DNA of 64,000 nt. Source: Polytrichum commune (lineage: Eukaryota > Streptophyta > Polytrichopsida > Polytrichales > Polytrichaceae). Below, piece by piece: positions 44,570 to 60,204 of the stretch (position 1 is the stretch's first letter; each line of letters opens with the position of its first letter). The notes under the pieces are model-generated. The model saw only the letters and a list, made by a program, of their open reading frames with translations. It was not told where the DNA came from and made no database searches. A program made the translations under genes and the position numbers. The stretch lies in contig OX485808.1 in assembly GCA_950295325.1 (NCBI GenBank), positions 23,270,527 through 23,334,526 of the forward strand. Direction: 5' to 3'.

Positions 44570-46033
44570 GACCATAGGTATCACAACACTTGGATCAACA
44601 CATCCGATCTCATGTGGTTCAAATACAAATGTCTTGCCATGACATGAAAGCATCTCCTTAAAACCTTGCCTCTCAACATTAGTAAATAAATATGTCATTT
44701 CTAGTCTTCAATCCATCTAAATTTGAATACGTGAACTTATGTCTTATCTTCCTTGGATCCCTCATATTTGGTTGCATCGAAAATTTTCCTATTTTCTCCT
44801 CACAATCCAAAAGTAATGACAACGATACCATCTTCATTTTCTTCGCCACCGTTTTATATTTTGTTTTTACCCTCACTTCATGAATCGATTCCTTCAAATC
44901 AACGAAAATCTTAATCTCCCCAAAAAAATCCTTAGAACAAATATTTACAACTCCATCACCTCCATCACACCCATAATCTAGCAACGTTTGATTTCACCCA
45001 TAGTATCTTCAAACATGTTTCATCAACCACTCCATAAATGTCTTCATCTTCGCTGAGTTCACCTTGCACCCTCAATTTTTGTTCAAGATCTCTAACAAAG
45101 CATTTCTCCATTTTCTTCAAAGCATCCACCTTCTTGAATAACATAGAGCCATTCCTCAAAAACATAGTATCTTTTGTACTTTTACAACTAGGTATGAGTT
45201 TTTTATTTCATGCACCATTGCAATCCCGTCCTACAATAGCATAAGGCAAAAATCCATTGGATTCTCTACTTCCTTGAACTCTTTCATCATCTTTGGCATA
45301 GGTTGCTCCTTCAAGCCATCCCAATTTTTCTCATGGTTCATATAAACCGTCAAAAATTGAACAGTCTTCTTCCCATCTTGACTTCTAATCCTTGTATATG
45401 CGGATCCATCATTCATCACCTTTGACTTCATTCTACAAGCTAGAATGTATGGTTAGCCTAAAATAATAAGATAAGTAGACATGGCTTGAACAAATAAATA
45501 GTATTCACACCCAACATTTCCTATTATCACCTCTATATTTAAACATGCTTCATACAATTCTCCCCGTGAGTTGTTTGCCGCTCGAATCAACCATCCGTGA
45601 TTGGTATCAATAGAGTATCATTTTTTTCATACAACTTCTTAATGCCAAATTGATATCCAATCCATAATCGATCAATGTTACTATCGGCTCTTCAAAATCC
45701 CCTAACTTCACCAAAGTCTCTATCGTAGTCCTAACCAATGATTCCAAAAATAATGGCTCTGATAAGAATCCAAACTTTTATATCACTCATTTTCAAATTT
45801 CATCCGAAACATTTTGTTGTAATGATGGACTGTAAATATCATTATCCCTCATCAACCTCGTTCTTTGTATATTTGACAACATCATCTCCGGCAGTGTTTG
45901 ACGTTTATTCAATAATGACCTCATGAAATTCACTCTTTGCATTGCCATGAATCTCTCCAATGGTGAATTCTACATTTCCATTCAAAATTCGTCCTTCCAA
46001 TATTTTTTTGAATTTGTGGCAACTTCAATGTCC
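44570..46033 (-). pseudogene. Old Ty3/gypsy remnant, downstream half (protease and pre-RT)
   Basis: On the minus strand, below the insertion point, frames read the end of a Gag-like ORF, then a retropepsin-like region with TLIDYGLDIN (DYG in place of the usual D-S/T-G), LIPITDGW and YPIILG-like pieces. A segment with SAYTRIRSQDGKKTVQFLTV follows, then an acidic linker and, near 44570-44700, FKEMLSCHGKTFVFEPHEIG, which resembles the stretch before the reverse transcriptase in gypsy Pol. Stops and frame shifts are frequent, so it is dead. The RT itself was not found downstream. Assignment to Ty3/gypsy rests on motif order and family memory. Confidence 0.55.
46030..46033. repeat. Target-site duplication, left copy (GTCC)
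   Basis: GTCC directly precedes the left LTR and is repeated at 55835-55838 directly after the right LTR. Deleting the element plus one GTCC rejoins the flanking reading frame without a shift, which confirms the borders. Confidence 0.85.
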
Positions 46034-46569
46034 TGTCGTGTAAACTAAGATCGTTAAACACAACAGATCGAGTGTCGTCGTCAACATCAATTAGCAAAAT
46101 AAAATAGCAAACTAAAATGCTAAACAACCACCTCTTCAAGATGAGGGTTTCTCTCTCCAAGCTTAAGAAACTAAAATGTCTCCTTACAAAGCTTAAGAAA
46201 CTCTAAAATTCACACACAAGAGTCAAGCTATCTCTCACTCCACGAAGGGAGAATCCAAGAATGCAAGTGGTGGAGAAAGAATGCAAAGGCTTTACTCATA
46301 ATCTACTTCACCATAGCCATGAAAAAGCAACAACAAGCTCTCTCTCTCAAAACACACTCACAAGACTTGACTTGACAACAATGGCAAGTCAAGAGGCCTT
46401 CCTCTCCATACAACCCCAATCCTATGTGGAGTTCATCCATGGAGTGGATGAACAACTAACTAGGACTCCCAATGGAGTCCGTTACTCATCCCAACACACA
46501 TAGACTCCTAGTGGAGTCCATTTACTCCTAAATTGACGTGACTTAGCCCCGATGTCACCTCACGTGACA
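46034..46569 (-). repeat. 3' LTR (full form, 536 bp)
   Basis: On the element's strand it begins TGTCACGTGAGG and ends ACACGACA, giving TGTC...GACA termini. It consists of a 429-bp core (46141-46569) shared with the 5' LTR and a 107-bp terminal block (46034-46140) that the 5' LTR lacks. A second copy of that 107-bp block lies just inside it (46572-46678). Confidence 0.85.
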
Positions 46570-46571
46570 GC

Positions 46572-46678
46572 TGTCGTGTAAACTAAGATCGTTAAACACA
46601 ACAGATCGAGTGTCGTCGTCAACATCTATTAGCAAAATAAAATAGCAAACTAAAATGCTAAACAACCACCTCTTCAAG
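46572..46678 (-). repeat. Extra copy of the 107-bp LTR terminal block
   Basis: Identical to 46034-46140 except for one base (CATCAATT versus CATCTATT). It abuts the 3' LTR through two bases (GC), so the local sequence GACAGCTGTC looks like a joint between the end of one LTR and the start of another, as in two-LTR circles. Confidence 0.85.
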
Positions 46679-46690
46679 TGCCCCCACTAG
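46679..46690 (-). promoter_or_regulatory. Polypurine-tract-like sequence
   Basis: On the element's strand it reads CTAGTGGGGGCA, the kind of G-rich tract that primes plus-strand synthesis next to the 3' LTR. Here it abuts the extra 107-bp block rather than the LTR's TGTC end. Confidence 0.5.
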
Positions 46691-47003: not shown

Positions 47004-48278
47004 TCAATCATGACCATTAACGGCCACGGAATGAGAGGCTTTCTGACAACGAGGACAAACCCAATTGCCAGAAGGAAGAGTCAAAAGGGGAGGTGTCAAA
47101 CATGCCATGTGCCATCCACGTTGACATTGGTCGCACAATAACATTGTTGCAGCTCTTGTCTTCTCTCCACAAACATAACAAGGCAGACCCTGTGGTACAA
47201 CCGCCAACTCGGGATGCACAGAGCCGTCGATGGGAAGGTGACATGGAGCACAATTCTTTGAATGCTCACGACATTCCCGTCCATCCTTGCCTTCAAGCAA
47301 TAATATACCACTTGGCAAGACATCTTTTACCCGTAAAATCGTGCGCCCAGCCTTGACATCCAATGTCGTAGGCGCCTCCCGTTGCAAGTAAACATAATTC
47401 CCTTTGGAAAATCTACGAACCTGAGGTCGATAAGCTCCACTGCGGATCTGGACATACCGTAATGTATCACGATGTTGAGCAATATTTAAGTTCTCCATAG
47501 CCATAGGCATGGCCTTTTGGAAGAACGTTGCTTGGTCATGAAGACATTGAGCCCAAACATTTGGATCATCCAAGTTTACCACGGGAGCCAATTTCTCTCG
47601 CACCGAGCTAGGTAAAATTGGTTCCCGTCCATACAAGAGTTGGTAAGGACAATAGGATGCCAAAGATGCTTGCCTGCTGAAACGATAACCCATTGCTATC
47701 CATGGTAACATTAAGTCCCAATCGCGATGGTTGCCATGAACCAATCCATACTTCCGCAAACTGCGCTTAACCGTCTGAACAACTCGTTCAGCTAAGCCAT
47801 CTGCCTCAGGGTGATCTCTAGAAGTTGTTCGATGATCAATCAAAGCCTTGGTACACAAAGCCTCGAAAGATCCAAGGAATTTTCTCCCTTGATCTGTCAA
47901 CACCTCTGCAGGTGCTCCAAACCGTGCCAAAACTCGATCAAGAAATGCCATAGCCGCCAATTCTGAGGAATTTTGGGGAAGAGCCACGAGTTCAATCCAC
48001 TTACTAAAATGCTCCACCATCACAAGCACATACTTGGAACCACGTGGAGTGATAGTAAGCGGTCCGGCAAAATCCAAAGACCAACGATATCCCAAGTCCA
48101 TAATAGGTAAAGGCTGAAGTTGAGGTGACAAAGTATTAAAACTTGACCTGACCCGGTCACATACTTCACACCGAGAAACATAAGTGGCAACCTGTTGATA
48201 CATACCAGTCCACCAATATTGGTTGCGCAACATAGAGTGCGTCCTTCGCACTCCAAAATGTCCAAGCTCCTCGTGCAC
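47004..48278 (-). CDS. Integrase with C-terminal PHD finger
   Basis: It inserts the cDNA into host DNA. It has 424 codons in the same frame as the RT ORF, directly after the TAA; the first codon is GTG, so this is a continuation of Pol rather than an independently started gene. The N-terminal zinc motif is H2, H7, C37 and C40. The catalytic DD35E triad is intact at D69 (SLDFAG), D129 (LTDQG) and E164 (GLAER). From about residue 290 a conserved linker (ILRVKDVLPSGILLLEG) leads to a C4HC3 PHD finger (C367, C370, C382, C385, H390, C393, C408, C411) with the usual tryptophan before the last pair (NWVCPRC). PHD fingers commonly read histone H3 tails, so the domain may steer integration, as chromodomains do in chromoviruses. 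That role is inferred. Confidence 0.93.
   Translation of the reverse strand: MHEELGHFGVRRTHSMLRNQYWWTGMYQQVATYVSRCEVCDRVRSSFNTLSPQLQPLPIMDLGYRWSLDFAGPLTITPRGSKYVLVMVEHFSKWIELVALPQNSSELAAMAFLDRVLARFGAPAEVLTDQGRKFLGSFEALCTKALIDHRTTSRDHPEADGLAERVVQTVKRSLRKYGLVHGNHRDWDLMLPWIAMGYRFSRQASLASYCPYQLLYGREPILPSSVREKLAPVVNLDDPNVWAQCLHDQATFFQKAMPMAMENLNIAQHRDTLRYVQIRSGAYRPQVRRFSKGNYVYLQREAPTTLDVKAGRTILRVKDVLPSGILLLEGKDGRECREHSKNCAPCHLPIDGSVHPELAVVPQGLPCYVCGEKTRAATMLLCDQCQRGWHMACLTPPLLTLPSGNWVCPRCQKASHSVAVNGHD
47046..47180 (-). other. PHD finger domain (integrase residues 367-411)
   Basis: Spacing C-x2-C-x11-C-x2-C-x4-H-x2-C-x14-C-x2-C, with MLLCD before the third cysteine and GWH at the histidine, matches the canonical PHD pattern and not a RING (wrong order) or a retroviral zinc knuckle. 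Confidence 0.92.
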
Positions 48279-48281
48279 TTA
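48279..48281 (-). other. In-frame TAA between RNase H and integrase
   Basis: The frame runs ...R-A-S-L-V-R-TAA-V-H-E-E-L-G-H... with no shift. The following bases (GTGCAC) do not fit a known read-through signal. In gypsy elements RT and integrase normally lie in one polyprotein, so this is most simply a point lesion in an otherwise intact copy. Confidence 0.7.
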
Positions 48282-50135
48282 CCGTACCAAAGAAGCTCTT
48301 TGATCTGGCCTTGGAACGATGCGCCTCGTTCCGTTCGGCCACACACGAAATAACAAGTTGTTTGCCCAACGAAACCTTGTTATCCGGTGACTAACTCTAT
48401 CTCGCTCCATAGCAGATAGTCCAAGAGGAAATATCCCTTGTTGAAGTTTGTACAAGACCGCCTGGTCTTCCCACACATCACTAACAACGAGAGATTTATC
48501 AACCTCCTCATCATGTTCTTCTACAAGGATCTCAGCAGCCAATCCCGACATCATTGTGAGATATGTGGCAGCATGCCAACCCGGCACTGCCTCACGATCA
48601 CAATCTCCATGCCACCTGGCTCCAGTTAAATCCTCATCTGAAGGACTTGGATTGCGAGACAATCCGTCTGCATCCAAGTTGGCAATTCCTGCTCGGTGAA
48701 CAACTTCAAAATCATATTCCTGAAGTAACAATGCCCACCTAGCAAGTTTCCCGGTGAGCTTATCTGATTCCATAAGCCATTTTAAAGGCTGATGATCAGT
48801 CACCAAAGTAAACTTTTGCCCATACAAATAAGGTCGAAAATGTGCAATGGCCCAAACGGCCGCCAAGGCCTCGCCTTCATAAGAAGAATAATTAGATTCA
48901 ACACTATTATTGCTTCTAGATGCATAAGCCACCACATATTCCTTTCCCTCTTCATCTTTCTGTGTCAAAACCGCTCCCAATCCCACTGTACTCCAATCCG
49001 TGTGCAATTGAAAAGCTCTAGACACATCCGGGCGTCGAAGCACTGGCACTGAACCGAGCCTCTGCTTCAATGTATCAAATGCCTGTTGTTGTTCCCGACT
49101 CCAAATCCATGGTTGGTCTTTCCCCGTGAGAATGGTAAGAGGTTTGGCAATCAAACTAAAGTTTTTGACAAACCTCCTATAATAATTTGCCAATCCTAGA
49201 AATGCACGAAGCCGTGGTACATCACTAGGTGCGGGAATTTTGTGCAAAGCATCCACCTTCGCCTGTTGCACACCAAGACCGCCATGAACAATCATGTGGC
49301 CTAAATAGGGCAATTGATCATGGAAAAACTTACATTTTCCATGATGTAAACGGAGTCCCCACCGTTGAAGTCGTTCAAATACCGCTTGCAAATGCCTCAC
49401 ATGATCATGTGGACTGTTACTAAAGATGATAACATCATCAATGTAACATCTAGCAAACGGCAAACCAGCCAATAATTGGTCCATCACCCGCTGAAATTCA
49501 GCTGGTGCATTCTTGAGACCAAATGGCAGAAATTTCCAATGATAAAGTTGATCCTTGCCATCTTTATCAATTCCCCAAAATGCGGTCTTCACCCGATCAC
49601 CCAACAACAAAGGTAATTGGTGATAACCAGACCTCAAATCCAAAGTGCTGAAGATTCTAGAAAATCCTAGTGCATCAAACAACTCCTCCGGCATCGGCAT
49701 TGGATATCGATCCGACTTGGTCTTGCGGTTGACTGGACGATAATCACCACACATCCGTTTTTCCGTCCAGTTGCCAAAGATATCCTTCTTTGACGGCATA
49801 ACCGTGGCACAAGCATACTCTCCATTGGAGAGTTCAATCAATTCCGCTGCCAATAACTCTTGACATCGAGTTTGAACACCCAACCTTTCAGAGGTACTAA
49901 GTCTGTATGGCCGTCTGAAAATAGGGTGGTCGTCCTCGAGTTGAATACGAACAGGTTTACCTTTATATCCTTCAAGATCATGAAGACTAAAGGCAAAACA
50001 ATTACGGTAAGAGCGAATAAATGCCCGTACCTTTCGTGCTTCGGCACCAGTAAGCTTTGGCCGCACTTCAATTGACCAATCGTCAAATTCCGTGGTTTCC
50101 TTCTTCATAGAAGGATTGCCAATTGGTGCCAGCAC
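48279..50135 (-). CDS. Reverse transcriptase and RNase H (Pol)
   Basis: It copies element RNA to DNA. It has 618 codons, continuous in frame with ORF1 across a TAG, so it is expected as a read-through fusion; the first listed codon is GTG and I do not take it as a true start. The RT region (about residues 70-290) has CGDYRPVN, STLDLRSGYHQL (first catalytic Asp at D166), FLPFGLKNAPAEFQ and the YIDD box at 231-234. The RNase H region (about 372-495) has HTDWST (D380), YEGEALAAVWA (E420/E422), TDHQPL (D447) and NLDADGLSR (D490). All expected catalytic residues are present. The C-terminal part (about 500-618) is the linker towards integrase. Sequence and order are Ty3/gypsy. Confidence 0.95.
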   Translation of the reverse strand: MLAPIGNPSMKKETTEFDDWSIEVRPKLTGAEARKVRAFIRSYRNCFAFSLHDLEGYKGKPVRIQLEDDHPIFRRPYRLSTSERLGVQTRCQELLAAELIELSNGEYACATVMPSKKDIFGNWTEKRMCGDYRPVNRKTKSDRYPMPMPEELFDALGFSRIFSTLDLRSGYHQLPLLLGDRVKTAFWGIDKDGKDQLYHWKFLPFGLKNAPAEFQRVMDQLLAGLPFARCYIDDVIIFSNSPHDHVRHLQAVFERLQRWGLRLHHGKCKFFHDQLPYLGHMIVHGGLGVQQAKVDALHKIPAPSDVPRLRAFLGLANYYRRFVKNFSLIAKPLTILTGKDQPWIWSREQQQAFDTLKQRLGSVPVLRRPDVSRAFQLHTDWSTVGLGAVLTQKDEEGKEYVVAYASRSNNSVESNYSSYEGEALAAVWAIAHFRPYLYGQKFTLVTDHQPLKWLMESDKLTGKLARWALLLQEYDFEVVHRAGIANLDADGLSRNPSPSDEDLTGARWHGDCDREAVPGWHAATYLTMMSGLAAEILVEEHDEEVDKSLVVSDVWEDQAVLYKLQQGIFPLGLSAMERDRVSHRITRFRWANNLLFRVWPNGTRRIVPRPDQRASLVR

Positions 50136-50141
50136 AACCTG

Positions 50142-50150
50142 TGATTGCTA
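50142..50150 (-). promoter_or_regulatory. Read-through signal: UAG followed by CAAUCA
   Basis: ORF1 ends TAG-CAA-TCA on the element's strand. The six bases after the stop fit CARYYA, the context known to make UAG leaky (the tobamovirus replicase type). The frame continues unbroken into RT for 618 codons. This would make Gag-PR-DNMT the main product and Gag-Pol a minor one. Confidence 0.75.
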
Positions 50151-53100
50151 GTCCGTGGAGAGGGCAACACCTTTGCCCCCATCATCTGCACTTGAATCCA
50201 AATGCGTATCCTCTCCACTACAATCAGTTTGTGTAGCTAAATAGCTACCCACATATGAAGTATCACCAAGAAATAGAAGTGGAAACATTTTATGGGCCTC
50301 CAACTTCCCAAACTCTTGGGCCAAAGCCAAAAAAACACGTTGGGCTCGAAGCTCTTCCGCAACATAAAGTTTCAAAGGAAATAATCCCTCGGTGTCATTG
50401 ACCTCAATGTGATCCTTGGATTGCAGCTCCATTGCCCCCTGACCATTGTTCTCTGCCCTCAGAGTACGCAATTCGTCATTCATACGTTGTTGAGCAGCAA
50501 GACAAATTCCAATTATCCACACAATGCTGTTAAGATCCATAGTTTGCCCCAATAGGAAACGTCTCTGACCTTCCTGAACCCCGTGAGCAGCCGTGGTACC
50601 TGTAAGAAAACCCATGGTGCGTTCCCGCTCATCTGCCGTAGGCTCCTCATAAGTTTGGGTTTTTGAATCCCAAACCATGCCAGGTCCACGAGATCGAAAT
50701 GCAAAAGACTGTGGATATGTCACAAAAGTAGGTAGTGCACCTCTTGGAATGCCCACCTTATTAATTAATGCAAATGGCAAGGTGTCATCCTTGGTAACTG
50801 CCAAGGAAACACGATGATCATCTAAAATGTCATCCACTTTGCGATCCATAAGGCGGGGAATGCGGGCAATCGCCGCTGAAAGCACCCGAGGTGATACCAA
50901 GTTGGTCCAAAACCAACGAGGCCGATGAGCAAAGGATCCCAAAGATGCAGCATCCAGAAATGTTGGAGTACCCAGAATTTGGTTAATGTACTCACCATCC
51001 TTCACCACTTTGTGCCGGGTATCACCCAATAATGGTACATTTTCGAAAATGTACCCTGGCGGAGTTGATTGGTGGGTAAACCACCATTGCGTCAATCGCG
51101 TCAAATCCGCAAACAAACTAGACCTAGGATCATCCAATCTCTGGCCAGTTCCTGCCCGCGAATGGCCTTGACAAGGCCATCCTGCAAGAATCAAATCCAC
51201 GTGGCCCAACCTTCTCAAATCCTCATCACTAATCATAGTGACATCTTGAGGAAGTTGACCACAACATCCATGAATGGCAGAGGCTGACAATTGTGCGGGG
51301 TATCTCAACAACAATTGTTGGATGTGGTGTCGGACGGCTCTGTTGGCTGCATACCCATTGTCCACATGAATATATCGCCAAACTGTAATTCCAGCTTCCA
51401 ACACTGCCGCCAAACCTGTGCCAATGCCTCCAAAGATCTCCACAAGGACAATACCTTCAGGTGATGGTTGCCAACGAATGGGTTGAGCAAAAGAAAATGA
51501 GGATAAAGTTGGAGGTGCCTCTCCAAGCTCCAAATCCGCTACAATGTGTCGACAATGGTCGGATAACTCCTTAGGAGTTCGCCATGGTGGAGGTGGATCC
51601 TTGAAATGTCGAGCAGGAATTTGAAAAGATGGTAAAAATTGTTGTTCTGCCGCATTACAAGTGTAGTCCATTGTTTCCTCCAATAAAACTGGAGCACAAG
51701 GCAAATCTGCAACTGAACCGCTGCAACCAAACATTGCCTCCGCAACCATAGTCATAGCAGTGGCTGCAAATGTGACGGGAATAAATACCTTCCTGCCATC
51801 TCCAGTGGACCATCCCGGTCTAATCCATGCCTCTTCCGTCCAATTATCCAAACCAAAGCCAAGTGGGTAAAGAGCTTGCTGACCAACAAGTATATCATAG
51901 TTGGTAGCATTAGTAACAACACACCTCATTGACAAATGAGTGTAAGTAGGCCCTGCCCCCACATGAAAAATCAAACGTAGAGGTGCCTTGGTGTAACCTG
52001 TTGCACGTTCAGTGCCCCCTACTGAAGTCACAATAGTGAATGGACAAGGATCCAAGCTTGCTGGCGTCAATCCAAGACTGTCAGCAAGTCCTTTGCCAAT
52101 CATAACCGGTTGAGCACCGGAATCCATCATAACTCTCAGTGGTGTAGCACGGATAGTGGGCATATCCGTACGTGAAACGACAAACAAAGATTTGTCGTTT
52201 ATCAGCCGTACAACTCCTGGTTGCAAATTATGCCGTTCGCGAGCAGGCCTTGCAGAAATGTCTGCAAGATATGCCGCTCCGGACGCATAATTCGCAAACA
52301 ACGTATCCACTGCTGAAATTGATGCTGGAGGAATATCAGTTTGCTTACCAAAAGCAATGATCGCCGCATCCGCAAGACTCGCTCGCAAATTGGCTAAGTC
52401 CTCCACCTCCTCAGCCACAGGTACGTCAACCACAGCTTGGGATACTTGAAGGGATGGCAAATCCGCCTTACCTTCTAACATTCTCCCAGCTAAATGAAAA
52501 ACTGTAGCAGGCTTGAAATCCGAAGCCATAAACTCCGAACCCGAGAAAATTGGCATATGGAGAATTTTATATGCCAATGCCTGCGTAACATCCTTCGAGA
52601 TGGAATCCCCATCTCTCAAAGGTACAGGGTTTTTAGCCCCAACAACAGTGGTGTCTACCAATCCAAATGAAAGAGGTAAACGTGCTTGACCAATTTGATC
52701 AGCTGGTCCGGCATGGCGAGGATGCAGCACCTCGTTGCTACCACCACTCGTGGAAGCCACCGCATCTGCCAATGTTTGTGAGCGAGTAGAAGCCGCCGCC
52801 ACCACCTCTCCAGCTGCTCCAAACATATACATGTCCGAACCCGAGGTGCCACCACCCACATGCGGCTCATAAATTTGAGCAATAGATGCAGAAGATTTGA
52901 GCTTTTGCTCAAGCTCTGCCACCTTAGCCTCAAGACTCTGCTCCCTTGGAGACTTTCCAGTGACATAACTGGCAGGCCGCATCTCAGGATGAAGTAGGAA
53001 ACAATGATCCACATCGTGATTAGTGCCACCACAATGGCTACATTTCAATTGTCTCTTCTTAGAATTGTCCCCTGCCCTTACTGGTTCCATCTTTTGTTTT

Positions 53101-54245
53101 AATTTTCCCAAAGGCTGAGTTTTCTTCTTCTTAGGACAATTGGGATCATTCTTCGAATGACCAGCTTCTCCACAACCCCAACAATGCAAAATCTTTTGCT
53201 CCTTGACGAGTTGAGTCTCAGCTAAACTACTAGTAGCTGTGACAATTCTTCTTGGTTTCGGACTCTCTGTCATCCAAGATACCATATCCGTGGCATCATG
53301 TTGGCAAAGAGCCCGATCACATTTCTCAACCACGGCAAACGCTTGTGCAAGCGTAGCTCGGCCCTCGTAGTCGAGGATAATCCGAGGTGATGCCAACTCA
53401 AGTAGCCGCTTGTCAATCTTAGACAAAAATATTTTAACAAGCTGACTCTCAGCAAAAACACCTCCCGACTCCACAGCAAATCGCGCGAGTCGCGTATACA
53501 TGGTCCGTGGAGTATCATCCTTCTCTCGGCGGAAATCCTGGATGCGCTGCATCTGGTCTCGCCGAAATCCACCATACTCCACTTCCAAATGTGCGACAAA
53601 TTCAGTAAGGGGATTAAATGGAGGTGGTGGACCAACAGCCGTCAATGCTGCCTGTGTAGCACGTGCCATCCGTGAAAGGGTAGCCGTGCTACTGCCAGCC
53701 ACCAGTGGCCCAAATGCCAGTTCTTGGTCCTCAGACTCATCCGGTGGATCCTCCTCCTTTAAGGTGGGTGGAGCTAAGGTGGCAATCGCCCCATCTTTAA
53801 GGGCTGAAATAAGTTCAACCCGGGCCTCCCAATACTGCTCCACCTCCCGAAGTTGTCGCTGATGACCCTCCGTCCATCGTTCGTAAGTTTGGAGTGCCTC
53901 ATACTCCAAATGTTGAGGCAGAAGTTCAAAGGCATACCAATCATTGAAATTGGAAGACCTTTGGCGTTTCTCCTTAATCCAGGTACGAAACCGGAGTTTC
54001 CAATCGGACAAGGAAATTCCCCCAGCTCGACCTGAGAACCGATCACGCACTGAATTGTGGCGATCGTCCTCCATTTCGTCGAACGTGCCGACACTCCAAA
54101 TCCGAAGCCTACTGGTAGTGTCCAACGCCGAAATAGGCTCAAAAGCCTCGTTGGTATCTACCTCTGGCTCAAGATTTGTGGTATGCACGTCCTCCAAGTA
54201 ATCTGGTGATGGAGATCGATAATATCGGCTCCTAGTTTGCACCAT
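50148..54245 (-). CDS. Gag-protease-cytosine methyltransferase polyprotein
   Basis: 1365 codons from ATG at 54245. Gag-like, charged and helical region about residues 60-330 (FNPLTEFVAHLEVEYGG, then RRDQMQRIQDFRREKDD). Zinc knuckles at C355-C358-H363-C370 (six residues before the last Cys instead of four) and C402-C405-H410-C415 (canonical). A short coiled coil near 433-452. Aspartic protease with MMDSG (D708) and NYDILVG downstream. Then a DNMT3-like C5-methyltransferase, about residues 929-1252, followed by a 110-residue tail. Gag and protease process the particle; the methyltransferase would methylate cytosine in DNA. ORF1 is much longer than usual for gypsy Gag-PR because of the inserted enzyme. 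It has no internal stop and no decay of catalytic residues. Confidence 0.95.
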   Translation of the reverse strand: MVQTRSRYYRSPSPDYLEDVHTTNLEPEVDTNEAFEPISALDTTSRLRIWSVGTFDEMEDDRHNSVRDRFSGRAGGISLSDWKLRFRTWIKEKRQRSSNFNDWYAFELLPQHLEYEALQTYERWTEGHQRQLREVEQYWEARVELISALKDGAIATLAPPTLKEEDPPDESEDQELAFGPLVAGSSTATLSRMARATQAALTAVGPPPPFNPLTEFVAHLEVEYGGFRRDQMQRIQDFRREKDDTPRTMYTRLARFAVESGGVFAESQLVKIFLSKIDKRLLELASPRIILDYEGRATLAQAFAVVEKCDRALCQHDATDMVSWMTESPKPRRIVTATSSLAETQLVKEQKILHCWGCGEAGHSKNDPNCPKKKKTQPLGKLKQKMEPVRAGDNSKKRQLKCSHCGGTNHDVDHCFLLHPEMRPASYVTGKSPREQSLEAKVAELEQKLKSSASIAQIYEPHVGGGTSGSDMYMFGAAGEVVAAASTRSQTLADAVASTSGGSNEVLHPRHAGPADQIGQARLPLSFGLVDTTVVGAKNPVPLRDGDSISKDVTQALAYKILHMPIFSGSEFMASDFKPATVFHLAGRMLEGKADLPSLQVSQAVVDVPVAEEVEDLANLRASLADAAIIAFGKQTDIPPASISAVDTLFANYASGAAYLADISARPARERHNLQPGVVRLINDKSLFVVSRTDMPTIRATPLRVMMDSGAQPVMIGKGLADSLGLTPASLDPCPFTIVTSVGGTERATGYTKAPLRLIFHVGAGPTYTHLSMRCVVTNATNYDILVGQQALYPLGFGLDNWTEEAWIRPGWSTGDGRKVFIPVTFAATAMTMVAEAMFGCSGSVADLPCAPVLLEETMDYTCNAAEQQFLPSFQIPARHFKDPPPPWRTPKELSDHCRHIVADLELGEAPPTLSSFSFAQPIRWQPSPEGIVLVEIFGGIGTGLAAVLEAGITVWRYIHVDNGYAANRAVRHHIQQLLLRYPAQLSASAIHGCCGQLPQDVTMISDEDLRRLGHVDLILAGWPCQGHSRAGTGQRLDDPRSSLFADLTRLTQWWFTHQSTPPGYIFENVPLLGDTRHKVVKDGEYINQILGTPTFLDAASLGSFAHRPRWFWTNLVSPRVLSAAIARIPRLMDRKVDDILDDHRVSLAVTKDDTLPFALINKVGIPRGALPTFVTYPQSFAFRSRGPGMVWDSKTQTYEEPTADERERTMGFLTGTTAAHGVQEGQRRFLLGQTMDLNSIVWIIGICLAAQQRMNDELRTLRAENNGQGAMELQSKDHIEVNDTEGLFPLKLYVAEELRAQRVFLALAQEFGKLEAHKMFPLLFLGDTSYVGSYLATQTDCSGEDTHLDSSADDGGKGVALSTD
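50490..51461 (-). other. DNMT3-like cytosine-5 methyltransferase domain
   Basis: Residues about 929-1252 of ORF1. Motif I (SAM binding) VEIFGGIGTG at 935-944; motif IV with the catalytic cysteine, AGWPCQGHS, C1025; motif VI YIFENV with E1068; motif VIII-like AHRPRWFWTNL near 1106-1116; target-recognition region to about 1200; ERTMGF near 1208; motif X RRFLLGQTMDLNSIVWIIG near 1228-1246. Order I-IV-VI-VIII-X is not permuted, which excludes plant DRM. There is no BAH or chromodomain, unlike MET1 and CMT. Phrases such as FGGIGTGLAAVLEAGI, FENV and HRPRWFW resemble DNMT3. The enzyme looks active. The product is 5-methylcytosine; sequence preference cannot be read from here. Confidence 0.9.
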
Positions 54246-55403
54246 AAAATAATCACTTGAGTACCTGCAACTATCTACAAGGTAATGGCAACCTGCACCT
54301 GTTGCGGGCTATCTAAATGGCAATCCCTTGCCAAATGCCAAGTGTTTATGCCCCCAGAATTCCAAAATTGTGCAAAGGTTTGAGATTGGTAATTAAAATG
54401 AAAAATCAGCGTTGAAAAGGCTCATTTCCAAGGTGATTATGAACTCCAATCAACAAACTAAGTGCACCAATGGACTCCTAGGAAGATTTCACACAAATTA
54501 GGCTCAAATTTCACTCCAATCGGAGTTAATTTGCTCCCAAAAACAAAAATCAGCGTTGAAATTAGCAATTTCAGCAATGATTTTGACTTCCAATCAAAAA
54601 TCCAATTACACCATTGGATTCCTTGGCAAATTTCACACAAAATAGGCTCAAATTTCACTTCAATCGGAGCTAGTATGCCCCCAAATTTGTGCCTCAAAGT
54701 TTGTGACAATGAAATGCCAAATTTGAAAGTGAAAGTAAAAAAATAAAAAAAATCCGGTTTATTTAAAAATTTAAATTAAATTAAATTAAATTAAAACAAA
54801 ACAAAACAAAACAAAAAATTAATTAACTTAATTAACTTAATTATCCTAAATTAATTAACTTAATTAACTTAATCTAATTAAATTAGTTAACTTAACCTAA
54901 TTATGGAATTAATTAACTAAAGGGGAAATTAATTACCTGCAAAAGGGGAAGGGGGGCCAAGCTGGCGCCGCCCGCCCCCGGCCCGGGATTTTGCCGCCTT
55001 CGGTTCAGAATGGGAGCTCCAGGAGCTCCAAGAGTGTCCGTGGAGCTCCGGAGCTCCAAAAAAAATTAAAAAAAATTAAAAATTCGAATTTTAAGTTTGG
55101 TTTGTGTTTGTTTGTAAACTTAAAAAATTAAACTTTGCTTTTACAAATTGCAAGCAAGAATGATGTGACTTGAGAATCTTGAGACCAAATGGAATCTCAA
55201 GATTCAACCATCAACACTTGAAGAAAACACAAAGAGACAACAAAAGAAAAATGGGAAGATTTCTCTCAAAATCTTCTTGAGGGTTGCAAGAAATGACAAA
55301 CTAAGCTTTCAAACACTTGTATCACTCATTTGCTCTCATTACTGGGCCATTCTGGCTCAGAAATACAACCAAGAATGAAAAATTTGAACAATTGTTGTCA
55401 AGT
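54246..55403 (-). other. 5' leader of the retrotransposon
   Basis: About 1.16 kb between the 5' LTR core and the Gag start, with no coding frame of note. It contains a ~136-bp direct duplication (about 54400-54540 and 54540-54690, sharing AAAATCAGCGTTGAAA and AGGCTCAAATTTCACT), a TTAAATTAA/AACTTAATT low-complexity stretch (54755-54930) and a GC-rich block (54945-55060) with repeated GGAGCTCC boxes that can pair with one another. A packaging or ribosome-entry role is conceivable but not shown. No tRNA-complementary primer site was identified. Confidence 0.7.
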
Positions 55404-55834
55404 ATGAGGGTTTCTCTCTCCAAGCTTAAGAAACTAAAATGTCTCCTTACAAAGCTTAAGAAACTCTAAAATTCACACACAAGAGTCAAGCTATCTCTCA
55501 CTCCACGAAGGGAGAATCCAAGAGTGCAAGTGGTGGAGAAAGAATGCAAAGGCTTTACTCATAATCTACTTCACCATAGCCATGAGAAAGCAACAACAAG
55601 CTCTCTCTCTCTCAAAACACACTCACAAGACTTGACTTGACAACAATGGCAAGTCAAGAGGCCTTCCTCTCCATACAACCCCAATCCTATGTGGAGTTCA
55701 TCCATGGAGTGGATGAACAACTAACTAGGACTCCCAATGGAGTCCGTTACTCATCCCAACACACATGGACTCCTAGTGGAGTCCATTTACTCCTAAATTG
55801 ACGTGACTTAGCCCCGATGTCACCTCACGTGACA
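55404..55834 (-). repeat. 5' LTR core (431 bp), lacking the 107-bp terminal block
   Basis: On the element's strand it starts TGTCACGTGAGGTGACATC, with a CACGTG G-box in the first dozen bases and AAGTCACGTCAA a little further on, both bZIP/bHLH-type elements known from plant promoters. It also has GGACTCC/GGAGTCC inverted boxes and a CT/GA-rich stretch. It ends CCCTCAT followed by ACTTGACAACAATTG, where the 3' LTR instead continues CTTGAAGAGG. No clear TATA box was seen. Confidence 0.85.
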
Positions 55835-55838
55835 GTCC
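55835..55838. repeat. Target-site duplication, right copy (GTCC)
   Basis: Matches GTCC at 46030-46033 on the other side of the element. Confidence 0.85.
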
Positions 55839-59373: not shown

Positions 59374-60204
59374 GGCGGACATTAAGTTCGCCCATACGAA
59401 CTATGGGGGATGTCAAATCTGGGCGGGGGCAGCCTCCAAGGAAATTTTTGAACCCGACCGAAAACTGCTGCCCGCCCCGCCCAACTTCGAAAAAAATATT
59501 GCCCTTGCATTCTTGAAGGCTGCTTGACTACAAATCCCATATATATTGAGTGCACTTCGCCTTCAAGGTCTAAACTCCAATATATATGTGCACTTCCAAT
59601 TAGCAATTCATTGGGATTTCACTCCGGAAATGAAACCATCAATGAAGCACGTAATTAACTTGGAGGTCAAATAAAATTACAAAATCCTCATTAACATTGA
59701 GGTTATAATATTTATGACTTACCATATACTGAATTGGTTTGAATGTGTATGAATACTTGTGAAAGTAGGCGGCGTTACTAAAATATTATAAAATATACAT
59801 ACTATACCAGCACACTAAATTTAAGTGTCATTTTAGAATGACAAAGACAATTTCAAATGGTAAGTCATAAATATTATAACCTCAATGTTAATGAGGATTT
59901 TGTAATTTTATTTGACCTCCAAGTTAATTACGTGCTTCATTGATGGTTTCATTTCTGGAGTGAAATCCCAATGAATTGCTAATTGGAAGTGCACATATAT
60001 ATTGGATTTTAGACCTTGAAGACGAAGTGCAGTCAATATGGGATTTGTAATCAAGCCGGCCTTCAAGAATGCAAGGGCAATATTTTTTTCGAAATTGGGC
60101 GGGGCGGGCAATAGTTTTTGGTCGGGTTCAAAAATTTCCTTGGAGGTTGCCCCCGCCCGGATCTGACACCCCCATAGTTCGTATGGGAGAACTTAATGTC
60201 CGCC
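59374..60204. mobile_element. Mutator-type foldback element with 350-bp TIRs
   Basis: The ends are GGCGGACATTAAG and its inverse, flanked by the identical 9-bp duplication CTTCTCTAT (59365-59373 and 60205-60213), the Mutator/MULE signature. The arms 59374-59725 and 59857-60204 are inverted copies almost throughout, leaving a loop of about 131 bp. Differences between arms are mostly transitions, several at CpG. No transposase; the 72-75-codon frames inside mirror each other because of the arms. Confidence 0.92.

Follow-up and report, generated by a model that had tools for sequence, protein, structure and literature searches.

A predicted DNMT3-like cytosine methyltransferase in a Gypsy-type retrotransposon with split repeats from Polytrichum commune

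Why should a genome parasite carry the enzyme for its own silencing mark? This question was raised in 2018 and arises again from a 9.8-kb retrotransposon on the minus strand (55834-46034) of a 64,000-nucleotide (nt) stretch of the Polytrichum commune genome (GenBank assembly GCA_950295325.1, contig OX485808.1, positions 23,270,527 to 23,334,526; hereafter the window, to which all coordinates refer). Judged by its sequence, the last enzyme domain of the Gag-protease polyprotein of this element is a DNMT3-like cytosine-5 methyltransferase (methylase). We searched the 407.8-Mb assembly, in which seven contigs make up 406 Mb and the window lies in contig 6, for further copies; their comparison indicates that the domain is kept by purifying selection.

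Translation of positions 50490-51461 from the minus strand gave 324 codons without a stop, and the plus strand is stop-rich. Within the 1386-codon frame that runs from stop to stop at 54308-50148, the domain spans residues 950-1273 (929-1252 counted from the first Met), and it matched the Pfam family DNA_methylase with an E-value of 2.5e-10 in the whole open reading frame (ORF) and 2.9e-11 for the domain alone. The methylase motifs read FGGIGTG, GWPCQ, FENV, HRPRWFW and LLGQTMDLNSIVW. Motifs I, IV (PCQ), VI (ENV), VIII and X follow each other in unrearranged order, and the order of DRM enzymes, with VI-X before I-IV, is not that of the window methylase, which runs from I to X. Profile and fold comparisons placed the window methylase nearest DNMT3A/B, with bacterial, DNMT2 and DRM enzymes further away; the identity was 25%, and a few DNMT3 entries scored no higher than bacterial enzymes. 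A first-pass annotation of this DNA had described an intact S-adenosylmethionine motif, PCQ, ENV, HRPRWFW and motif X in normal order and a DNMT3-like class, and both descriptions are borne out by the open frame, the motifs and these comparisons. With regard to a possible viral origin, the twelve best matches among viral structures all showed 22% identity or less to the methylase, and no relative of P0001 was found in viral contigs by a search that reached close relatives only. A chance origin of the domain is excluded because there are at least 123 matches in the same genome and relatives in named plants.

The best 123 of 577 candidates from the methylase search of the genome were 86-100% identical to the window sequence, some of them being partial. 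No stop was present in 66 of these 123, and 15 of the 66 lie within the 1386-codon frame (hand count). From a Pfam search of the genome the best 123 of 353 candidates were scored, and 12 places new to the first list were fetched. Eleven of them represent a second subfamily, with 62-65% identity to the window in the methylase and 84-86% in the reverse transcriptase (RT; L085 with a broken RT match). The twelfth (L089) is a DRM-like host gene with rearranged motif order; the DRM class is reported only from streptophytes in the available part of a 2025 analysis of how DNMTs evolved (PMC12344493), so this gene marks the host as a plant. No host DNMT3 gene was seen among the best 123 of 353 candidates, a list filled by element copies. 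The corresponding RT search covered the closest relatives only (best 71 of 2769 candidates) and listed a methylase at most 3 kb upstream in 60 of the 71. Among the other 11, six had the DNA of the whole domain, L056 and L059 had part of it, and L051, L052 and L054 gave way to unrelated DNA inside the fetched 2.6 kb.

For an analysis of selection we combined the 30 best copies with 20 chosen for being less similar, 50 in all, and left out copies with at least 30 gaps in a part for that part. The pairwise ratio of nonsynonymous to synonymous differences (pN/pS) was 0.36 for the methylase, 0.43 for the 3' part of Gag-protease (44 copies) and 0.34 for the 5' part of the RT (46 copies). Relative to neutral, the per-site ratios of amino-acid changes found in a single copy (singletons) were 0.94 for Gag-protease, 0.80 for the methylase and 0.74 for the RT, and those of changes present in at least five copies were 0.26, 0.20 and 0.12, respectively (Fisher p = 9e-7 for the methylase, only a guide because the copies share ancestry). 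No stop was common to five or more copies. Methylase changes shared by 2-4 copies had a ratio of 1.04, that is, no constraint; this class fits young groups of dead copies and gives no support to selection. Between the subfamilies, omega was about 0.09 for the methylase, with synonymous divergence (dS) near saturation, and 0.066 for the RT. Decayed copies included, motifs I, IV, VI and VIII were intact in 45, 46, 43 and 47 of the 50 copies and the domain was free of stops in 34, and in subfamily 2 the same motifs were intact in 11 of 11 copies. Singletons are near neutral and shared changes depleted; therefore we conclude from these patterns that purifying selection keeps the methylase in two subfamilies, and inserted copies decay. 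The first-pass annotation had suggested such selection, to be checked by substitution ratios across genomic copies, and had named copies lacking the domain, or with motifs broken at neutral rates, as counter-evidence. The ratios were constrained, changes common to many copies depart strongly from neutrality, and no clean methylase-less element was seen in the stretches examined among the best 71 of 2769 RT matches.

From 5' to 3' the element consists of repeat A1, an untranslated leader, the 1386-codon Gag-protease-methyltransferase frame, a TAG, RT-RNase H (622 codons), a TAA, integrase with PHD finger (424 codons), a purine tract and the repeats B1-A2-B2 (Table 1). The three ORFs share one frame. 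Gag was assigned only by its position and two zinc-knuckle-like motifs found by eye, and the aspartic protease upstream of the methylase by a weak Pfam match (5.6e-4, below the family cut-off). The order Gag, protease, RT, RNase H and rve integrase is that of Ty3/gypsy elements, a classification based on Pfam and homology, and the methylase lies between protease and RT, as had been claimed. When the three ORFs were scanned against Pfam at E 0.1, an rve integrase was detected, but no tyrosine recombinase. Plant chromoviruses have a chromodomain at the end of the integrase; here the C-terminus is a PHD finger, and PF00628 was also detected on the pol proteins of many relatives. The earlier assignment to a Ty3/gypsy element thus holds for the protein domains; the repeats are not ordinary long terminal repeats (LTRs). 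Likewise, the description as unbroken is right for the methylase frame and not for the window copy itself, whose integrase is interrupted by a TAA in the zinc-binding domain. Open pol frames exist elsewhere in the genome: a 1047-codon frame without that TAA was counted by hand in 19 of the 71 RT matches.

Table 1. Positions of the retrotransposon features within the window
Feature	Position	Strand	Remarks
Target-site duplication, left	46030..46033	.	GTCC on +; identical 4 bases at 55835-55838
Split repeat B2, 108 nt	46034..46141	-	Outer 3' end of the element; terminates in ACACGACA
Split repeat A2, 428 nt	46142..46569	-	98.6% to A1
GC dinucleotide separating B1 from A2	46570..46571	-	ACACGACA-GC-TGTCACG
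Split repeat B1, 107 nt	46572..46678	-	99% to B2
Polypurine tract AGTGGGGGCA adjoining B1	46679..46688	-	
Integrase, H2C2 and rve core; PHD finger at its C-terminus (about 47180-47046)	47004..48278	-	Pfam Integrase_H2C2 3.9e-15, rve 1.8e-13, PHD 6.1e-11
Premature TAA within the integrase zinc-binding domain	48279..48281	-	
Reverse transcriptase - RNase H	48282..50147	-	Pfam RVT_1 1.2e-30, RT_RNaseH 6.4e-39
Putative leaky-stop signal TAG-CAATCA (UAG-CAR-YYA), Gag-protease-methylase / Pol boundary	50142..50150	-	TAG at 50150-50148
ORF1 frame, first Met 54245	50148..54308	-	Gag, aspartic protease (about 52154-51870), methyltransferase, C-terminal tail
Predicted DNMT3-like cytosine-5 methyltransferase domain	50490..51461	-	
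Putative self-primer binding site ACTTGACAACAATTG, 3' of A1	55389..55403	-	13-nt complement within A1
Complement of the putative primer site, inside A1	55635..55647	-	Expected close to the RNA 5' end
Split repeat A1, 430 nt	55405..55834	-	Outer 5' end of the element; starts TGTCACG
Target-site duplication, right	55835..55838	.	GTCC on +

The leader between A1 and gag contains two tandem 144-nt units that are 78% alike (54395-54682). Outside the element, positions 59380-60200 form a near-perfect palindrome, a fold-back DNA element with 183-nt arms (98% complementary), 115-nt arms (93%) and a 131-nt centre. No tRNA or Rfam family was found within the window.

The repeats are split direct repeats in the layout A-coding-B-A-B and not two whole terminal LTRs; since this layout recurs across copies, we dropped the ordinary-LTR reading. 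At the ends of nine other subfamily-1 copies, A1 and B1 were present in all nine, A2 after B1 in eight and B2 after A2 in seven. Both subfamily-2 copies inspected repeated this layout in a different sequence (A of 334 nt in L094/L095, of at least 238 nt in L092/L093). All seven subfamily-1 copies (the window among them) for which both ends were available are flanked by 4-bp target duplications, including L076/L077 with A-coding-B only and no A2, and the subfamily-2 copy with both outer ends in hand is flanked by GATG. DIRS/PAT elements are not known to make a target-site duplication, in contrast to what we found here. The B1-A2 junction corresponds to the two outer element ends joined via two bases, and was the same in all nine subfamily-1 copies having it (window included) and in the subfamily-2 copies examined. 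GGGGGCA precedes B1 in all 10 subfamily-1 copies compared, one of which has an additional G, and GAGGGGGGGCA precedes it in both subfamily-2 copies. A1 and A2 differed by 0-1 mismatches over about 430 bases in seven of nine fetched copies, by four in L078/L079 and by three mismatches and three gap positions in the window; this near-identity in most copies argues that the family has jumped recently. L074/L075 carries a duplication of about 130 nt of repeat A in A1 as well as in A2, so this change was copied between the repeats during replication.

ORF1 of subfamily 1 ends with TAG-CAATCA in 48 of 50 copies and with TAG-CAACCA in one, the remaining copy being unalignable; in subfamily 2 it ends with TAG-CAATTA in nine of 11 and TAG-CAGTTA in one. 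UAG-CAR-YYA is the essential hexamer signal for tobamovirus readthrough according to work in plants, and its wild-type context reached 32% in one assay (PMC2754532). The stop and the hexamer rule are identical here, but located between Gag-protease-methylase and Pol of a retrotransposon. An LTR retroelement described from Verticillium has UGA as the stop separating gag from pol; its authors looked for CARYYA and report that it is absent (PMC3441728).

The site 3' of A1 is complementary to repeat A over 13 nt in subfamily 1, a length equalled by only one of 3060 control 30-mers, and this complementarity was present in nine of nine other copies. In subfamily 2 it extends over 15 nt in L094 (0 of 3060 controls) and 13 nt in L092. 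Both sides of the pairing change in step between the subfamilies. This favours self-priming, although it is not proof. For the self-priming Gypsy elements Tf1/sushi and Tcn1, the conclusion was drawn from a primer site that pairs with the element's own RNA; the window element differs from these in its PHD finger instead of a chromodomain, its split repeats and its methylase (PMC6317226).

From these features we propose a life cycle which, taken as a whole, we hold to be probable by a narrow measure. Most ribosomes would halt at the UAG and release Gag-protease-methylase, and a minority would read through and add RT-RNase H-integrase-PHD. The methylase would be made with Gag in excess, released by the protease and taken along inside the particle, and RT and integrase would be made with the minority product. 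The 5' end of the RNA would pair with the site after A1 and prime reverse transcription, and plus strands would begin at the purine tract before B1, resulting in a linear cDNA of the form BA-coding-BA. As the purine tract adjoins B1 and the putative primer site adjoins A1, the LTR of reverse transcription would be B-A, with the integrated ends inside it. The cDNA ends would then join to a circle, which the integrase would cut at the B|A junction to give A-coding-B-A-B with TG..CA ends. A two-LTR circle opened at B|A yields exactly A-coding-B-A-B, and a one-LTR circle yields A-coding-B. The element would methylate its own cDNA, most likely before or at integration, and the new copy would arrive marked as host-like DNA. 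Among singletons, C-to-T changes per site amounted to 84/282 in CG, 85/303 in CHG and 362/1286 in CHH contexts, and other changes to 0.08-0.14 per site. This singleton spectrum contains a C-to-T excess without CG preference and no CG-specific methylation footprint; it gives no evidence for or against self-methylation.

A Gypsy element that combines DNMT3 with DIRS-like repeats has been known since 2018. KnitGypsy-Dnmt3 of Klebsormidium nitens shares with the window element Gypsy domains, a DNMT3-class methylase without the DRM rearrangement, DIRS-like repeats and purifying selection (Ka/Ks < 0.2 in Klebsormidium) (PMC5890265, de Mendoza et al. 2018). Its methylase is said to be in the Pol ORF, whereas the one described here is the last enzyme domain of the Gag-protease ORF, which closes with a tobamovirus-type stop, a comparison by description only. 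SymbioDIRS-Dnmt3 of Symbiodinium has a retroelement DNMT3 and A-coding-B-A-B repeats as well, and two of its copies carry out de novo CG methylation in yeast; it has a tyrosine recombinase and the methylase in the RT ORF, in contrast to the rve integrase of the window element (PMC5890265). PAT and Ngaro elements have split direct repeats (A1-B1-A2-B2) as found here, and DIRS-group elements encode a putative methyltransferase. The window element differs from these tyrosine-recombinase elements in its rve integrase, 4-bp target duplications, TG..CA ends and purine tract (PMC4157794, PMC3266345). The 2025 study mentions DNMT3 borne by retrotransposons of streptophytes and of dinoflagellates, the elements being LTR Copia and DIRS (PMC12344493). 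Searches of the open-licence literature, judged by listings apart from the papers cited here, turned up no report of an element like that of the window from a bryophyte, of a leaky stop in it or of its self-primer. The present element enlarges the kind described in 2018; the first-pass annotation had named neither the UAG-CAR-YYA stop after the methylase, nor the split repeats, nor the putative self-primer complementarity.

The best relatives carrying species names are from the bryophytes Marchantia, Calypogeia, Riccia and Sphagnum. The window methylase is 69-76% identical to P0002-P0010 (protease 69-78%, Gag 50-79%, linkers lower) and 49% to Marchantia P0014 (protease 40%, Gag 25%). P0014 and P0016-P0025 of Marchantia polymorpha are Gag-methylase proteins, named only hypothetical proteins, with 43-49% identity over residues 900-1280. 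The methylases of P0167 (Sphagnum) and P0014 are 73% identical (196/269), each with only 47-49% to the window, which reflects either slow vertical descent or transfer between hosts. Other domain orders in database proteins, RT-RNase H-methylase in P0126 and methylase-RT in one ORF in P0094, hint that the methylase was captured more than once or that domains were shuffled. A tree of the element relatives and one DNMT3A piece had long branches and said little on the origin. P0147, filed under a bacterial metagenome-assembled genome (Obscuribacterales), is 76% identical to the window methylase and is probably plant DNA.

Two alternatives concern the structure of the element. The UAG might not be read through, with pol being expressed from a separate start, or the stop might be mere decay. 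Readthrough is predicted here from the sequence, and a Met is found at residue 14 of ORF2; but UAG is kept in 49 of 49 alignable subfamily-1 copies and 10 of 11 subfamily-2 copies, the eleventh having a frameshift and an earlier stop, every variant of the next six bases in both subfamilies conforms to CAR-YYA, and only 27 of 1321 codon-aligned 9-nt windows in subfamily 1 are equally invariant, which makes this alternative very unlikely. The split repeats could also be ordinary LTRs that were rearranged once, without a distinct replication route, as might be expected from an RT, RNase H and integrase all of Gypsy type. We consider this most improbable, given that the layout recurs in the window, in full in seven of nine other subfamily-1 copies and in both subfamily-2 copies of different sequence, and that the Klebsormidium element is described with like repeats (PMC5890265).

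Other alternatives concern the function of the methylase. The first-pass annotation proposed that the element methylates DNA, perhaps its own copies, to limit damage to the host or to hide from it; this proposal has precedents, as slowing of transposition, hiding and methylated cDNA have all been discussed for retroelement methylases (PMC5890265). If the enzyme served self-restraint, it would mark new copies for early silencing by the host, with less damage and survival of the element lineage. The retention of the domain despite the host's own DRM-like gene and the C-to-T excess in all contexts, which fits methylation of copies after insertion, are compatible with this; yet a self-silencing copy gains nothing unless cis benefits are strong, and recent jumping is evident from the 0-1 mismatches between A1 and A2 in seven of ten copies (window included), so we regard self-restraint as unlikely. 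That the domain mainly binds nucleic acid or acts on RNA, in packaging or on the primer, with DNA methylation being secondary, appears quite unlikely as well: it lies within the Gag polyprotein near zinc-knuckle-like motifs, and the Klebsormidium relative was negative in a yeast test (PMC5890265), but motifs IV, VI and VIII are kept as described above in both subfamilies and the nearest structures are DNMT3A/B. A wider idea, which we consider possible but doubtful, is that retroelement methyltransferases go along with split or internal repeats, and thereby a circular DNA intermediate, whichever enzyme integrates. The integrase would here cut the circle at the internal B|A, and the methylase would act on the circle to protect it, bar self-integration or mark it as host-like; the same selection would have recruited unrelated methylases across element classes. 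Behind this idea stand the pairings of a putative methyltransferase with a tyrosine recombinase in DIRS/PAT, of DNMT3 with a tyrosine recombinase in SymbioDIRS, and of DNMT3 and split repeats with a DDE integrase in the window lineage; the methylase-carrying LINEs (long interspersed nuclear elements) of Symbiodinium are an exception to this pattern.

Returning to methylation of the element's own cDNA, the genome of P. commune offers many near-identical copies, two diverged subfamilies and broken beside intact catalytic motifs, and makes the question of why a parasite carries its own silencing mark testable by comparison of copies. The leaky stop would set the amount of methylase relative to RT. 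If true, the combination of a Gypsy-type integrase with DIRS-type repeats would represent an unusual route of retrotransposon integration.
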